Source: Sphingomonas sp. S1-29 (lineage in GTDB: Bacteria > Pseudomonadota > Alphaproteobacteria > Sphingomonadales > Sphingomonadaceae). From it: a DNA stretch of 64,000 nt. The translations under genes were made by a program, and so were the position numbers. The notes under the pieces were generated by a model. It saw only the letters and a list, made by a program, of their open reading frames with translations. It did no database searches and was not told the DNA's origin. Position 1 is the stretch's first letter, and each line of letters opens with the position of its first letter. Positions 8,952 to 61,110 of this stretch are shown in pieces. The stretch is from contig NZ_CP110678.1 in the NCBI RefSeq assembly GCF_026167545.1, positions 1,795,501 to 1,859,500 of the forward strand, read 5' to 3'.

Positions 8952-9055
8952 CGTCATGCCGGGCTCGACCCGGCATCCAGGCGAGCCCCGCCCCGCCAGC
9001 TTCACGCTGGTGGCGCACGGGGCACCTGGACCCCGGATCAAGTCCGGGGTGACGA
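8952..9055. repeat. Palindromic repeat related to 30001-30091
   Basis: The left part has CATGCCGGGCTCGACCCGGC. The right part ends with GGACCCCGGATCAAGTCCGG and GTGACGA. The right arm is shared with the repeat at 30001-30091. It sits between the convergent OmpA-like and tadA genes and could serve as a bidirectional terminator. Confidence 0.75.
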
Positions 9056-11987: not shown

Positions 11988-12407
11988 GGCTACGTCCGCG
12001 CCGGTGCGCGAAGCGCATCGCGCAAAACGGACGGCGGGGCGGCACCGCCGAACCCGTCCGACGGCGGCGGCTTTGCCGGCGCGCTTCTACCTAAACCCTC
12101 TCCCCTCCGGGGAGAGGGCAAGCGACCCCGGCGTAAGCCGGGGGAAGCGCGGGAGAGGTGCTGTAATGCAGCGCTTCCCACTGCCCCTCTCCCGACCTCG
12201 CTGCGCTCGGCCACCCGTGTCTGGTGAACAGTGCCCCGCACTGTTCAGGTCATGCCGGGGGCATGACCGACCTGACACGCCCCGGAGGGGAGAGGGAAGG
12301 GGAGCCGGCGCGTCGGTCGGGTTCGGCGCTGCCGACCCGCCGGCCGTGCCGGGCGCTGCGCTCGGCTTCGCCTTGCGAACCGGCGCGGGCGTGGCCGCGC
12401 CTGCGCC
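11988..12407. repeat. Nested inverted repeat of about 420 bp filling the 11881-12409 gap
   Basis: The outer arms (about 11988-12085 and 12310-12407) are imperfect inverted copies: the left has GCGCCGGT...GCCGAACCCGTCCGACG, and the reversed right arm has the near match GCCGAACCCGACCGACG. Inside lies a palindromic element starting CCCTCTCCCCTCCGGGGAGA, also present at 41755-41876. Within that is the 64-nt three-way-junction element at 12216. The block ends right at the phaB stop. Apart from the terminator at 11938, the rest of this 529-bp gap shows nothing gene-like. Confidence 0.7.
12216..12279. other. 64-nt three-way-junction palindromic element, copy 1
   Basis: The outer stem is CGTGTCTGGT with ACCTGACACG (9 of 10 paired). 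Inside it is hairpin 1, GAACAGTG/CACTGTTC with loop CCCCG, then a single A. Hairpin 2 is GGTCATGC/GCATGACC with loop CGGGG, then a single G. The two loops are exact complements, so they could pair with each other in RNA or single-stranded DNA. The same plan with different stem sequences occurs at 20814-20877. The related repeat at 41755-41876 lacks this element. Confidence 0.8.
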
Positions 12408-12409
12408 CG

Positions 12410-13132
12410 TCAGTACATATGCTGCCCGCCATTGATGCTCAGCGTCGATCCGGTCACGAACCCGCCCTCCTCCGAGCACAGGAACGCAACCCCGCGCGCG
12501 ATCTCGCTCGCCTGGCCCAGCCGGCCGACAGGGATCTTGGCGACGATCTTCTCGAGCACCTCGGGCGGCACCGCGGCGACCATGTCGGTGTCGATATAGC
12601 CCGGTGCGATCGCGTTGACCGTCACCCCGGCGCGCGCGCCTTCCAGTGCCAGCGCCTTGGTGAAGCCGTGGATGCCCGATTTGGCGGCGGCGTAGTTGAC
12701 CTGGCCATACTGGCCCGCCTGGCCGTTGATCGAGCCGATATTGACGATCCGCCCCCATTTGCGCTCGCGCATGCCGGGGAACACCGCCTTGGCCATGTTG
12801 AAGCAACCGCCCAGATTAATGCGAATCACGTCTTCCCACATGTCCTTCGACATTTTCAGGATCGTGCCGTCGCGGGTGACGCCGGCATTGTTGACCACCA
12901 CGTCGACCGGCCCCAGTTCGGCGGCGACCTTGGCGCAGCCTTCCTGGCAGGCGTCGTAATCGCCGACGTCCCAGCGATAGGCGGCGATGCCGGTACGCTC
13001 GGTGAAGGCGCGCGCCTTTTCATCGTTGCCGCCATAATTCGCCGCGACGGTCATCCCCATTTCCTGGAGCGCGAGGCTGATCGCCTCGCCGATTCCGCGC
13101 GTACCGCCGGTGACGATTGCTACCCGTGCCAT
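12410..13132 (-). CDS. phaB: Acetoacetyl-CoA reductase
   Basis: A 240-residue short-chain dehydrogenase that reduces acetoacetyl-CoA to (R)-3-hydroxybutyryl-CoA with NADPH, for polyhydroxybutyrate. It has the Rossmann motif VTGGTRGIGEAI, NNAG, the catalytic IGSINGQ serine and the Y-x-x-x-K in NYAAAKSG. It ends GGQHMY, characteristic of PhaB. FabG is the main alternative, but the sequence blocks around GYIDTDM and the C-terminus favour PhaB. It lies 42 bp after hemH on the same strand. No phaA or phaC is in the window. The stop abuts the nested repeat at 11988. Confidence 0.93.
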   Translation of the reverse strand: MARVAIVTGGTRGIGEAISLALQEMGMTVAANYGGNDEKARAFTERTGIAAYRWDVGDYDACQEGCAKVAAELGPVDVVVNNAGVTRDGTILKMSKDMWEDVIRINLGGCFNMAKAVFPGMRERKWGRIVNIGSINGQAGQYGQVNYAAAKSGIHGFTKALALEGARAGVTVNAIAPGYIDTDMVAAVPPEVLEKIVAKIPVGRLGQASEIARGVAFLCSEEGGFVTGSTLSINGGQHMY

Positions 13133-16510: not shown

Positions 16511-16617
16511 CTCCCCTCCCTGGAAGGGAGGGGTCGGGGGTGGGTCGGTTCGCAAGGGAACGGCGCGCCAGCCAATCGGCCTACCCACCCCCAGCCCCTC
16601 CCTTTCAGGGAGGGGAG
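16511..16617. repeat. Inverted repeat, family D, in the 16438-16785 gap
   Basis: The left end is CTCCCTGGAAGGGAGGGG followed by GGGGGTGGGT. The right end is ACCCACCCCC followed by CCCTCCCTTTCAGGGAGGG. Copies occur at 35582-35708 and 63811-63936. A partial right-end-like block (CCCTTCCAGGAAGGGG) is at 16688-16712. The remaining bases of the 348-bp gap between the oxidoreductase and lgt must carry the divergent promoters, but none is clear by eye. Confidence 0.8.
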
Positions 16618-16785
16618 CAAAAAGGGCGGTCGGCCGTGCAAGCCGGCGGCGGCCTCCGAGCACGACGCTGTCACAGGACACCGGCCCTTCTCCCCCTTCC
16701 AGGAAGGGGAGAATACAGCTCGTGACCTTGGCCGAATCGCACGCTACGACGCTGCCGATCGTTCCTACGCCCCAAGGACCCGCTC

Positions 16786-19347: not shown

Positions 19348-20108
19348 GCGAGGTCGAAGTCATCCGCGCCGCCGCGCTCGACGGGGTGCGCCACGGCTTT
19401 CTGGGGCGGCGCGGCGGGTTTTCGGGCGGAATCCATGCCGGGCTCAACGTCGGGCTGGGATCGGCCGACGATGCCACGACGGTCGCCGAGAATCGCGCGC
19501 TGGCGAGCGCAGCGGTCGCGCCGGGGGCGCGGCTGCTGACGCTGTACCAGGTCCATTCGGCCGATGCGGTGACGGTGCTCCAGCCGTTCGACGAGAAGTT
19601 TCGCCCGCACGCCGATGCGCTGGTGACCGATCGGCCCGACCTCGCGCTCGGCATCCTGACCGCCGATTGCGCGCCGGTGCTGCTGGCCGATCCTGCCGCC
19701 GGCGTCATCGGCGCGGCGCATGCCGGGTGGAAGGGCGCGCTCGGCGGCGTCACCGACACGACGATCGCGGCGATGGAAGCGATCGGCGCCAAGCGCGAGC
19801 GGATCGTCGCGGCGATCGGCCCGTGCATCGCGCGCGCGAGCTACGAGGTCGATGACGGCTTCCGCGACCGGTTCCTGGCCGGCGACCGCGAGAATGAGCG
19901 CTTCTTCGCCGATGCCCGGCCCGGCCATGCGCGCTTCGACCTCGAAGGCTATGTCGCGCACCGGCTGGCCGCCGCAGGGATCGCGCGGATCGAGGCGATG
20001 GGGCTCGACACCTATGCCGATCCGCAGCGCTTCTTCAGCTATCGCCGCGCGACGCATGCCGGCGAGCCCGATTATGGCCGCCAGATTGCGATCATCGCGC
20101 TGGGCTGA
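19344..20108 (+). CDS. pgeF: Multicopper-oxidase-fold (laccase domain) purine nucleosidase/peptidoglycan editing factor
   Basis: A 254-residue DUF152/YfiH protein. Metal-site blocks are QVHSADAVTV, LTADCAPVLLAD, AHAGWKGALGG and IGPCIARASYEV, with the C-terminal RFFSYRRATHAGEPDYGRQ. Family members act on purine nucleosides, and in E. coli YfiH corrects misincorporated serine in peptidoglycan precursors. The start is GTG at 19344 (VSEVEVIRAA), overlapping the GNAT stop as GTGA. The open frame upstream from 18822 is a shadow of the GNAT gene. Confidence 0.94.
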   Translation: MSEVEVIRAAALDGVRHGFLGRRGGFSGGIHAGLNVGLGSADDATTVAENRALASAAVAPGARLLTLYQVHSADAVTVLQPFDEKFRPHADALVTDRPDLALGILTADCAPVLLADPAAGVIGAAHAGWKGALGGVTDTTIAAMEAIGAKRERIVAAIGPCIARASYEVDDGFRDRFLAGDRENERFFADARPGHARFDLEGYVAHRLAAAGIARIEAMGLDTYADPQRFFSYRRATHAGEPDYGRQIAIIALG

Positions 20109-20547: not shown

Positions 20548-21035
20548 CCTCCCCCTTCAGGGGGAGGTGGCAGCCCGTAGGGCTGACGGAGGGGGCCTCG
20601 CCGCAAGCGCATCGCTCGCGTCCTCCCCCTCCACCACCGCTGCGCGGCGGTCCCCCTCCCCCTGCGGGGGAGGATGTTCAGGGTGCCGGCGTAGCACACA
20701 TCACTCCTCCCCCTTCAGGGGGAGGTGGCAGCCCGCAGGGCTGACGGAGGGGGCCTTGCCCCAAACGCTCCGCCCGAGCCCGCCCCCTCCACCACCGCTG
20801 CGCGGCGGTCCCCAGCATCGGGTTGACCATGCCCCGCATGGTCAAGGATCGTCCGGGGGACGATCCGACCCGATGCTCCCTGGCGGCGGAGGATTTTCAG
20901 GGTGCCGGTGTAGCCGACATCACTCCTCCCCCTTCAGGGGGAGGTGGCAGCCCGCAGGGCTGACGGAGGGGGCGTAGCCCCAAACGCCCCGCCCGCGCCC
21001 GCCCCCTCCACCACCGCTGCGCGGCGGTCCCCAGG
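20548..21035. repeat. Three-unit array of GC-rich BIME-like repeats filling the 20547-21041 gap
   Basis: Units start at 20548, 20706 and 20925, each with CCTCCCCCTTCAGGGGGAGG, then a GCAGCCC...GGGCTGAC hairpin, and, at the other end, CCACCGCTGCGCGGCGGT. Between units the spacer GTGCCGG(C/T)GTAGC...CATCACT is also kept, so this is true tandem duplication. Unit 2 carries an extra 64-nt structured element (20814-20877). Nothing gene-like is present in the gap. Confidence 0.85.
20814..20877. other. 64-nt three-way-junction palindromic element, copy 2
   Basis: The outer stem AGCATCGGGT/ACCCGATGCT pairs perfectly (10 bp). Hairpin 1 is TGACCATG/CATGGTCA with loop CCCCG, then A. Hairpin 2 is GGATCGTC/GACGATCC with loop CGGGG, then G. 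Geometry, loops and linkers equal copy 1 at 12216, but the stems differ almost entirely. Neighbouring repeat units 1 and 3 lack it, so it looks inserted in the arm of unit 2. Confidence 0.82.
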
Positions 21036-21041
21036 ATCGGG

Positions 21042-21911
21042 TCAGCGCGTCGGCACCGGGGTTTCGCCCGAATAGTCGTAGAACCCGCGCTTGGTCTTGC
21101 GGCCATACCAGCCGGCTTCGACATATTTGATCAGCAGCGGCGCAGGGCGGAATTTGGGGTCGCCGGTCCCTTCGAACAGCACGCGCGTGATTTCCAGGCA
21201 GGTGTCGAGCCCGATGAAATCGGCCAGCGTGAACGGCCCCATCGGATGGTTGAGCCCCAATTTGCACGCGGTATCGACATCGGGGATCGTCGCCACCCCC
21301 TCGCCCACCGCAAAGCACGCCTCGTTGAGCATCGGCATCAGCACGCGATTGACGATGAAGCCCGGCGCGTCGTTGGCGTGGACGATTTCCTTGCCCAGCG
21401 ACTGGCCGAATTTCTCGACCGCAGCGACGGTGGCGTCGCTGGTGGCAAGCCCGCGGATCAGCTCGATCAGCCCCATCACCGGCACCGGATTGAAGAAATG
21501 CACCCCCATGAAGCGCGCGGGATCATGCGATGCCTGCGCCAGCCGGGTGATCGGGATCGACGAGGTGTTGCTCGCGAGGATCGCGTTCGGCGACAATACC
21601 TTCCCGACCGTCTCGAAGATCTGGCGCTTCACCGCCTCGCGCTCGGTCGCGGCTTCGATCACCAGTTCGCAGGGGGCCATCGCCGACACGTCATCGACGC
21701 ATTCGATGTTCGCCAGCGCTTCGTCGCGCGCCTGCGCGGTCAGCTTTTCCTTGTCGACCAACCGGGCGAGCGCCTTGGCGATTCCCGCCTTGCCCGCCTC
21801 GGCGCGGGCCTTGTCGACGTCCGACAGCAGCACGGCATAGCCCGCCTGTGCCGATACCTGCGCGATTCCCGCGCCCATCTGCCCCGCCCCGATCACGCCA
21901 ACGCTTTGCAT
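21042..21911 (-). CDS. 3-hydroxybutyryl-CoA dehydrogenase
   Basis: A 289-residue NAD-dependent (S)-3-hydroxyacyl-CoA dehydrogenase of the Hbd/FadB2 type. It has the N-terminal Rossmann loop [29 protein letters not shown], the catalytic [29 protein letters not shown] and the C-terminal [16 protein letters not shown]. It works in short-chain beta-oxidation or butyrate metabolism. PhaB in this window makes the other stereoisomer. It is divergent from the DUF1176 lipoprotein gene and ends next to the repeat array. Confidence 0.95.
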
Positions 21912-30000: not shown

Positions 30001-30091
30001 GTCACCCCGGACTTGATCCGGGGTCCACCTCTCCCCAACCACCGGCACGGGTTGTTGCACGCTGGACCCCGGATTAAGTCCGGGGTGACGG
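30001..30091. repeat. Long-arm inverted repeat, family F
   Basis: Twenty-seven-base arms that start GTCACCCCGGACTTGATCCG and end CGGATTAAGTCCGGGGTGAC differ by one base pair. The inner spacer has a small AACC/GGTT hairpin. The arm is shared with 8952-9055. Confidence 0.85.
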
Positions 30092-32285: not shown

Positions 32286-32850
32286 CCTCCCCCGCCAGGG
32301 GGAGGCGGACGCTCCAGCGTCCGTCAGAGGGGGCGGATAGGGAAACCGTGGTGGCGCATACCGAAGCGCATCGCTTACCTCCCCCTCCGTCAGCCGCTGG
32401 CTGACACCTCCCCCTGGCGGGGGAGGACCATGCTGGTCGAAGCTTCGCGTCGGTCGCAACCCAAACCGCCCGGGGTGCCGCCCACCCCAAATCCTCCCCC
32501 GCCAGGGGGAGGTGGCGGGCGCCTCGGCGCCCGTCGGAGGGGGCGGATGGGGGAACCGTGGTGGCGCATACCGACGCGCATCGCTTACCTCCCCCTCCGT
32601 CAGCCTTTGGCTGACACCTCCCCCTGGCGGGGGAGGATCATGCCGGCCGAGCTTGGGGTCGGTCGTGACCCAAATCGCACAGGATGCCGCCCACCCCAAA
32701 TCCTCCCCCGCCAGGGGGAGATGGCGGGCGCCTCGGCGCCCGTCGGAGGGGGCGGATCAGGAAATCGTGGTGGCGCATACCGAAGCGCATCGCTTACCTC
32801 CCCCTCCGTCAGCCTTTGGCTGACACCTTCCTGGCGGGGGAGGATGCGGC
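32286..32850. repeat. Three-unit tandem array, about 208-bp period, filling the 32276-32916 gap
   Basis: Units start at 32286, 32493 and 32702 (spacing 207 and 209). Each has CCTCCCCCGCCAGGGGGAG, an internal hairpin, GGAGGGGGCGGAT or close, then a non-palindromic core CGTGGTGGCGCATACCGA...GCGCATCGCTTAC, then CCCCCTCCGTCAGCC...GGCTGACACC. The internal hairpin is GGACGC/GCGTCC in unit 1 but GGGCGC/GCGCCC in units 2 and 3. The rest of the 641-bp gap shows no gene. Confidence 0.88.
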
Positions 32851-56463: not shown

Positions 56464-56471
56464 CGATCCAT

Positions 56472-56599
56472 CCCCCTCCCGGTTGCGGGAGGGGGACCTA
56501 GAATTCCCCCTCCCGCAACCGGGAGGGGTTAGGGGAGGGCCTGTTCGAGGCGGCTTCCCACATACCCTCCCCCTACCCCTCCCGCGAGCGGGAGGGGGG
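56472..56599. repeat. Inverted repeat between ctaD and ctaB
   Basis: CCCCCTCCCGGTTGCGGGAG, then CTAGAATT, then CCCCCTCCCGCAACCGGGAG, and at the far end CCCCTCCCGCGAGCGGGAGG. Each arm is itself a hairpin. It may attenuate between ctaD and ctaB, and its last bases (GGAGGGGGGA) lie in the ctaB ribosome-binding region. Confidence 0.8.
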
Positions 56600-60166: not shown

Positions 60167-60174
60167 CGCTAGCG

Positions 60175-61110
60175 CCCCCTGCCCGCCCCCTCCGCCGGCC
60201 GCTACGCGACCGCCACCTCCCCCTGGCGGGGGAGGAAAGCCACCCCCAATCCTCCCCCGCCAGGGGGAGGTGGCAGCCGCAGGCTGACGGAGGGGGCGGA
60301 CGCGCGACGCCGGCATTGGCCGCGCCGACCCGACATTTTCCAGGCGATCGCGACGCCCCCCAAACCAGCGTCCCCCCAACCTCCCCCTCCGCCGGCCGCT
60401 ACGCGACCGCCACCTCCCCCTGGCGGGGGAGGAAAGCCACCCCCCGATCCTCCCCCGCCAGGGGGAGGTGGCAGCCGCAGGCTGACGGAGGGGGCGGATG
60501 CGCGATGCCGGAGTTGGCCGCGCCCACCCGACATTTTCCAAACGAACGCGACGCCCCCAAAACCAGCGTCCCCCTGACCTCCCCCTCCGCCGGCCGCTGC
60601 GCGGCCGCCACCTCCCCCTGGCGGGGGAGGAAAGACACTCCCCGATCCTCCCCCGCCAGGGGGAGGTGGCAGCCGCAGGCTGACGGAGGGGGCGGACCCG
60701 CAACGCCGGAATTGGCCCCCACCGCCTGACATTTTTTCGAGGGATCGCGACGCCCCAAAACCAGCGTCCCCCTAACCTCCCCCTCCGTCGGCCGCTACGC
60801 GCCCGCCACCTCCCCCTGGCGGGGGAGGAAAGCCCCCCCTCAATCCTCCCCCGCCAGGGGGAGGTGGCAGCCGCAGGCTGACGGAGGGGGCGGACACGCA
60901 ACACCAGCGTTGGCCCCGCCCACTCGAAATTCCAAACGAACGCGACGCCCCCCAAACCAGCGTCCCCCTTTCCTCCCCCTCCGTCGGCCGCTACGCGCCC
61001 GCCACCTCCCCCTGGCGGGGGAGGAAAGACACCCCCCAATCCTCCCCCGCCAGGGGGAGGTGGCAGCCGCAGGCTGACGGAGGGGGCGGACGCGCAACAC
61101 TGGCGTGGAC
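60175..61110. repeat. Five-unit tandem array, about 197-bp period
   Basis: The block CCGCCGGCCGCTACGCGACC (or its CCGTCGGCCGCTACGCGCCC form) recurs at about 60191, 60388, 60586, 60784 and 60980, a period of 196-198 bp. Each unit also has CACCTCCCCCTGGCGGGGGA, CCTCCCCCGCCAGGGGGAGG, GGCAGCCGCAGGCTGACGGA, GGGGGCGGA, and a less palindromic GCGACGCCCC-AAACCAGCGTCCCC stretch. It fills the region between SURF1 and thrC. No gene is in it; long open frames there are repeat artefacts. Confidence 0.92.

Follow-up and report, generated by a model that had tools for sequence, protein, structure and literature searches.

The usual criterion for defining a mobile element is sequence conservation at its ends. 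Several groups of very small palindromic DNA have also been described. REP/REPIN sequences and CGTC REPs are short palindromes, often organized as paired hairpins, which are mostly intergenic, sometimes genic, and restricted to particular lineages; CGTC REPs have stems of 8–9 bp, loops of 4–5 nt and no known transposase (PMC3733652, PMC3116915). Mitochondrial double-hairpin elements, GC clusters and repetitive hairpin elements are tiny hairpin-rich mobile DNAs with no known enzyme (PMC4478555, PMC2800124). Rickettsia palindromic elements and prokaryotic MITEs insert in frame into genes and carry no gene of their own (PMC10969869), and integron attC sites are recognized by their folded shape and have variable stems (PMC2727003, PMC6393395). 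The element analyzed here resembles each of these groups in the features just listed, folded-shape recognition being putative in its case.

We analyzed a 64,000-nucleotide stretch of the chromosome of Sphingomonas sp. S1-29 (the window), in which an initial annotation, made from the letters alone, had pointed to a structured 64-nt unit. This unit, designated the Y element, is apparently an undescribed small mobile element whose identity lies in its shape more than in its sequence; no description of it was found in the openly licensed literature searched, including that on intergenic palindromes of Sphingomonas. Where other mobile elements conserve end sequence, the Y element conserves geometry: its three stems vary independently of one another, its loops are constant and 64 nt are exchanged for exactly 4, in a bacterial family that is tractable and widespread. 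In our judgment it is probably a very small non-autonomous mobile DNA of Sphingomonadaceae, which works as a folded shape and whose stems are re-paired by templated repair.

Architecture of the Y element and its two copies in the window

The Y element is 64 nt long and consists of a 10-bp outer stem around two hairpins with the loops CCCCG and CGGGG, separated by the single-base linkers A and G. Copy 1 (12216..12279, plus strand) is in the canonical orientation, with A between the hairpins and G after the second, and scored 82.9 bits with the covariance model. It comprises, all on the plus strand, the 5' arm of the outer stem (CGTGTCTGGT, 12216..12225, with one mismatch to the 3' arm), hairpin 1 (GAACAGTG-CCCCG-CACTGTTC, 12226..12246), linker A (12247..12247), hairpin 2 (GGTCATGC-CGGGG-GCATGACC, 12248..12268), linker G (12269..12269) and the 3' arm (ACCTGACACG, 12270..12279). 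Each linker was constant across 209 collected insertions, at positions that the search patterns also fix. Because of the computed folds and of relatives whose loops close with a T-A pair (TGGGA; TCCCA), the hairpins, first described as 8 bp, are best regarded as 9-bp stems with CCC and GGG triloops. Copy 2 (20814..20877, plus strand) has identical lengths, loops and linkers, with hairpin 1 (TGACCATG-CCCCG-CATGGTCA) at 20824..20844 and hairpin 2 (GGATCGTC-CGGGG-GACGATCC) at 20846..20866, and all of its stems are perfect. The geometry reported in the initial annotation, including the single outer-stem mismatch of copy 1 and the matching plan of copy 2, was therefore exact. Its further statement that almost every stem base differs between the copies was too strong: the stems do differ with pairing kept, at 13 of 26 base pairs (26 of 64 bases).

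Each DNA strand of both copies folded into the same Y (−24 to −29 kcal/mol, z −6.6 to −7.6), as did both strands as RNA (z −5.5 to −6.7). Copy 1 lies approximately 130 bp downstream of a gene for a short-chain dehydrogenase (12410-13132, minus strand). Copy 2 is flanked by two genes whose 3' ends face it, one encoding a laccase-domain protein (19350-20108, plus strand) and the other a 3-hydroxyacyl-CoA dehydrogenase (21042-21911, minus strand). C/G-rich palindromic host repeats enclose both. Copy 1 splits such a repeat into a left part (12184..12215, plus strand), whose unoccupied form is expected to contain the 4 bp CTCT, and the rest of the host hairpin on the right (ccccggaggggagaggg, 12280..12296, plus strand). 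An empty paralog of the host repeat of copy 2 is present at 20617..20695 (plus strand). A possibly truncated Y element is AGGATCGGGT (21033-21042), which follows a host-repeat arm exactly at the position where an element would be expected to start and continues into the 3' end of the gene for 3-hydroxyacyl-CoA dehydrogenase.

The host repeats, hairpins rich in C and G that enclose a further ACC...GGT hairpin (for example, CCTCCCCCTGGCGGGGGAGG), are abundant at 20548-21042, 32286-32845, 60171-61100 and 16513-16709. In places they are arranged in tandem, in arrays of approximately 196–209 bp. Their inner hairpins also vary in sequence with pairing kept, and the host repeats may be a second shape-conserved family. 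Two further kinds of palindrome were observed in the window: CGTC-tagged REPs (CGTCACCCCGGACTTGATCCGGGGTCCA) at 9029-9053, 30001-30027 and 30064-30089, which are separate from the Y element, and a 24-bp perfect inverted repeat at 56471-56528, in which 8 bp separate two copies of a CCCCTCCCGGTTGCGGGAGGGG hairpin in inverted orientation.

Occurrence in Sphingomonadaceae and exact replacement of 4 bp

A pattern that leaves the stems free, following the structure descriptor proposed with the initial annotation, gave 10 matches in the 3.38-Mb genome, all of them structured, compared to 0 and 1 for reversed-pattern controls, which excludes chance; the refuting outcome named in that annotation, a lack of further copies genome-wide, did not occur. 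A covariance model built from 50 aligned copies detected 12 copies in the same genome. In the genus, the exact pattern occurred in at least 90 of 151 genomes, with a maximum of 20 copies per genome and a control near zero. With the covariance model, 20 of 201 genomes of the order, from 6 of 64 genera, were positive, and the listed carriers all belonged to one family; at class level the single positive among 289 genomes was the window's own, with none in the other 288 sampled. Named records containing the Y element came nearly all from Sphingomonas, Sphingopyxis, Sphingobium and their kin, and plasmid records from Sphingomonas only, with annotations placing copies within cobN and a cysteine desulfurase gene. 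The stems-free pattern matched 19 times in 2.9 million viral contigs (IMG/VR); all 19 matches were well paired, which provides a strong specificity control, and they look like sphingomonad sequence. One query of 50,697 phage records gave no match. The Y element may serve as a ready marker, in that the covariance model detects relatives between subfamilies that are missed by sequence searches.

The 12 copies of the window's genome (G000 C1) were all confined to a single half of the chromosome, lying to one side of dnaA at 1.69–3.28 Mb (p ~0.0005 if uniform), a clustering that was absent from other genomes glanced at. In addition, a 3,975-bp circle of Sphingomonas parapaucimobilis (NZ_CP155767.1, L305), with annotated guaA, tyrosine recombinase and AlpA genes, contained a truncated right half of a Y element; this circle looks like an excised integrative element.

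Integration was examined by joining the flanks of each element and comparing them, by two methods, with homologous unoccupied sequence. Exactly 4 bp were replaced in 65 of 103 cases, and the modal difference by the second method was also 4 (68 of 110 elements). The remaining third or so of the sites had other gaps, for the most part of 3 or 5, a deviation no larger than the ambiguity of alignment in C-tracts. The replaced 4 bp varied (CTCC/GGAG, CTCT/AGAG, CTTC/GAAG, GGGC, AGCC, CATG and others), and the element occurred in either orientation relative to the host repeat. Most sites lay within other palindromic repeats of high GC content, and some lay in genes, where the insertion was in frame. 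In the comparison of occupied with unoccupied sites, no target-site duplication was found, 4 bp being lost instead. The window itself contains an example, as the CTCC at 20656-20659 of the empty paralog, approximately 170 bp upstream, marks the position taken by copy 2.

The cleanest case lies outside repeats, in the single-copy RNase R gene, which is occupied in one genome (G094) and empty in its homologs, so that both forms exist at one homologous site. The occupied gene reads GGCGTGCTGCGCGG, the 64-nt element and GGTGACCGG (107 nt), compared to GGCGTGCTGCGCGG, CGAG and GGCGACCGG in the homologs (47 nt); the junctions are GCGCGG-64-GGTGAC and GCGCGG-CGAG-GGCGAC, respectively. Since 64 minus 4 gives a net gain of 60 nt, the reading frame is kept, and LRGEGDR becomes LRG-VAGRDVPRTSLDHAGHGRPATG-DR in the protein. 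Translations of open reading frames revealed in-frame copies in RNase R (two genomes, at different sites, the copy of the window's own genome being within a host repeat) and in the beta subunit of glycyl-tRNA synthetase (three genomes). Such +60 nt insertions offer a route for 20-residue segments into conserved proteins. Mobility is further indicated by a genome in which separate host repeats share the same 64-nt sequence; the evidence for it is between-species comparison, because each species was represented by one genome.

The initial annotation had mentioned integron attC sites as a loose analogy. That the Y element is an attC-like folded-DNA site for a tyrosine recombinase, perhaps a solo site left after cassette loss, is a reading to which we give hardly any credence: replacement of 4 bp is, to our knowledge, foreign to attC chemistry, the fold is a three-way junction rather than the attC hairpin, and the copies are dispersed singly rather than in arrays. 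What the two have in common is exact integration and structure kept over sequence, the latter a hallmark of attC sites (PMC2727003).

Constant loops, freely varying stems and half-elements

In the 209 distinct insertions, the GG/CC junction bases, the loops and the linkers were constant or nearly so. The constancy of loops and linkers is partly built in because the patterns used to fetch copies fix them. We argue that it is nevertheless real, based on the model search and on a structure-only scan of approximately 1.25 Mb of collected DNA with loops and linkers left free, which gave 151 canonical matches, one match with TGGGG and no others. Loosened forms among the model matches had 10-bp stems and the loops TGGGA and TCCCA. 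One sub-family (L270, L274) combines 10-bp hairpins and CCC/GGG triloops with an outer stem that lacks the GGT/ACC junction bases. The CCC loop came first and the GGG loop second in all 397 strand-wise matches, in DNA mostly fetched with loop-fixing patterns, and a contact between the two loops is possible from their sequences. Inverted loop order, predicted by simple loop-inverting template switches, occurred in none of these 397, a count subject to the same fetch bias.

The stems, in contrast to these constant parts, are free in sequence. Approximately 97% of their pairs in the 209 insertions were Watson-Crick, with all pair types represented. Covariation, whose test had been suggested together with a covariance model when the element was first noted, was strong (score 0.906, compared to 0.194 for shuffled and 0.06–0.12 for slid alignments), with 98.1% of stem cells paired (61.5% when shuffled), and all stem positions varied together with their partners except at the junction end of the outer stem. 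The outer stem alone had 139 distinct haplotypes among the 209 insertions; the element ends were most often AG/CT, and CG/CG, TT/AA and others also occurred.

This variability bears on the possibility that the Y element is a MITE of a conventional transposon, with the outer stem as terminal inverted repeats and a DDE transposase encoded elsewhere. The element is small, non-autonomous and dispersed, and its inverted-repeat ends are most often AG...CT, as such a reading would have it. A sequence-reading DDE transposase is disfavored, however, because the end repeats vary freely, which such an enzyme is not expected to tolerate; insertion costs 4 bp and creates no target duplication, and no autonomous copy was present among the matches listed for the commonest hairpin 1. 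We consider this reading quite improbable. In these listed matches hairpin 1 was always followed by hairpin 2 or ACC, and neither an autonomous copy nor an excision product was found; an autonomous copy with a hairpin at each end was rejected for this commonest hairpin-1 type.

Several observations place the constraint on DNA. In the 209 insertions, mismatches on a given strand were equally rare as G-T (49) and A-C (52). A selected RNA strand would tolerate G-U at such positions but not the complementary A-C. Close relatives differed mostly by whole base pairs. Because G-T was no more common than A-C and differences were mostly of this kind, we place the constraint at the level of DNA and not of one RNA strand. 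Perfect hairpin-1 stems one base pair apart differed by 35 transversions and 33 transitions, and one-pair transversions cannot pass through G-U, so these also count toward a DNA-level constraint. In haplotypes two bases apart, differences at partner positions and at other positions numbered 78:14 for hairpin 1, 56:31 for hairpin 2 and 132:82 for the outer stem (5–7% at partner positions expected); for hairpin 1, this corresponds to 78 of 92 pairs of haplotypes (6.7% expected), with few one-base intermediates (18 pairs). Judged from these comparisons, stem base pairs change as units.

A structured RNA, one of the options raised initially, would be a fold-conserved regulatory element (terminator, attenuator or mRNA stabilizer) spread as an ordinary repeat. 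The RNA fold is indeed strong (z −5.5 to −6.7), both window copies lie at gene 3' ends, and covarying stems, the usual sign of RNA, are present. We regard this option as improbable: G-U was not favored over A-C on either strand, the strands fold equally, both orientations occur within host repeats, no T-tract follows the element, and an exact 4-bp exchange is a feature of DNA recombination. A search of the window against Rfam gave no matches at the gathering score and none of weight at E values up to 1.

A modest number of sites contained one long hairpin in place of the Y, made of the outer stem and either hairpin 1 (41 nt) or hairpin 2 (43 nt), with flanks resembling the usual targets. In the right halves, linker G faces an extra C, which allows all 19 pairs to form. 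Copying of one arm followed by folding back at the junction would give both forms exactly, and template switching has been documented as a process that can maintain perfect hairpins and change base pairs as units (PMC8794818); by their sequences, the single-hairpin derivatives look like fold-back products. Origin of the right half by plain deletion was rejected, as the 42-nt form occurred in none of the 151 genomes (commoner stems tested). Identical left halves were present at unrelated targets in different genomes, so left halves may also move. A few full elements (L155, L214 (2981)) were observed at the exact center of a longer palindrome formed by their own flanks, as if fold-back copying had continued into the flank; such a palindrome as a rule was rejected, as it is rare and was clear in 1 of 155.

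Templated repair of the stems has an alternative in selection alone, which keeps the mobile-element reading and differs only in the repair step: the enzyme would need perfect pairing and unpaired variants would fail to transpose. If every transposition selected strongly for pairing and mismatched intermediates were lost, the outcome could look like templated repair, and paired stems would be explained with no repair process; the strict loops suggest a shape-reading enzyme. Three observations weigh against it, namely the similar numbers of transversion and transition pair changes in otherwise identical perfect hairpin-1 stems (35 and 33), the rarity of one-base intermediates (18 versus 78 pairs) and the complementary C added in right-half elements. 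We consider selection alone unlikely, though deserving more than passing attention.

Possible mechanism and relation to known systems

Sequence comparison directly supports dispersal, the 64-for-4 exchange, conservation of shape and pairing at the DNA level. Under the favored reading, a mobile folded DNA with template-repaired stems, one strand or an extruded cruciform would fold into a three-way junction that serves as the substrate. A structure-recognizing recombinase or nuclease, which may act in trans, would read the junction and loops and swap the 64-nt Y for a 4-nt stretch of the target. During replication or repair, the folded arms could template each other, either through synthesis by fold-back or template switching or through mismatch repair acting on the folded hairpin; mutations would be copied to the partner base, and the stems would drift yet stay paired. 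The same fold-back would occasionally skip one arm and yield half-elements. Of the initial suggestions, a folded-DNA target of a recombinase comes closest in spirit, given an element that is mobile, shape-conserved and exchanged exactly 64 for 4; neither a recombinase nor any other mobilizing enzyme was identified, and the element is not an attC site. The alternative suggestion of a palindrome-making repair process is supported for stem upkeep by the whole-pair differences and fold-back half-elements, and leaves dispersal unexplained.

The genes between neighboring copies in three genomes (G000, G085, G138) were ordinary genes, with no transposase. Y1 transposases were detected in 16 of the 151 genus genomes, and the fetched Y1 loci contained no elements. 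These data bear on the possibility that the Y element is of the REP/REPIN type and is mobilized by an HUH (Y1) transposase of the kind associated with REPs. Such an element would likewise be palindromic, intergenic, family-restricted and without target duplication, and some many-copy genomes do encode Y1 proteins of 224–236 aa. On the other hand, alignments of 50 and 209 elements had no constant GTAG or CGTC tag, Y1 transposases were absent from 135 of 151 genomes, including the top carriers (G039, G050, G138), and genuine CGTC REPs are separately present in the window. We therefore hold this reading to be very improbable.

The fuller proposal is that the Y is a novel kind of mobile DNA in bacteria, a gene-less 64-nt element read by shape and loops, with a 4-for-64 replacement chemistry, and inherited as a pattern of pairing and not of sequence, since its arms template each other. 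We offer it tentatively, at a little short of even confidence. If true, it would imply a hitherto undescribed structure-specific recombinase, or repurposed host repair, in Sphingomonadaceae. The element brings three questions within reach of experiments with short synthetic DNA: the identity of the enzymes that integrate folded DNA outside integrons, the speed at which palindromes are rewritten by templated repair in vivo, and the means by which palindromic repeats that carry no gene spread where no transposase has been found, as is likewise the case for CGTC REPs and mitochondrial double hairpins.

The Y element was initially called unusual for a REP-type repeat, and rightly, as the REP features tested, a GTAG/CGTC foot tag and a linked Y1 (PF01797) transposase, are absent. 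Unlike REPs, it has an enclosing outer stem and a three-way junction, constant CCC/GGG loops and free stems, no foot tag, and an exact 64-for-4 replacement, and most carriers are without a Y1 transposase. MITEs differ from it in having constant terminal repeats and target duplications. Mitochondrial hairpin elements share with it the merging and shuffling of hairpin units, whereas GC clusters have short putative target duplications (AG or ACT) and stems reported to be constrained in sequence and reside in an organelle genome (PMC4478555, PMC2800124). As with Rickettsia palindromic elements, in-frame insertion in conserved genes was found (RNase R, glycyl-tRNA synthetase beta); those elements are of approximately 150 bp, however, and neither the Y fold nor a 4-bp replacement is mentioned in their description (PMC10969869). 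An attC site is a single folded hairpin tied to gene cassettes and IntI, whereas the Y element is without cassettes. Hairpin maintenance by template switching explains paired changes in one event (PMC8794818, PMC8604942), but has been described for RNA genes and inverted repeats generally and not as part of a mobile-element life cycle, and the loops of the Y element never invert in the copies seen. Unlike in IS200/IS605-type single-strand transposition, no orientation bias toward the lagging-strand template was found (22 versus 30, p = 0.33, modest counts from ten genomes, with the origin set at dnaA and rounded lengths used for some genomes). The terminal repeat of adeno-associated virus is T/Y-shaped, with one stem and two short hairpin arms, and is the viral telomere of a replicating genome. 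Its resemblance to the Y element is one of shape only. That the Y element is a REP, a MITE or an attC site does not stand; that it works like a shape-recognized mobile site does.
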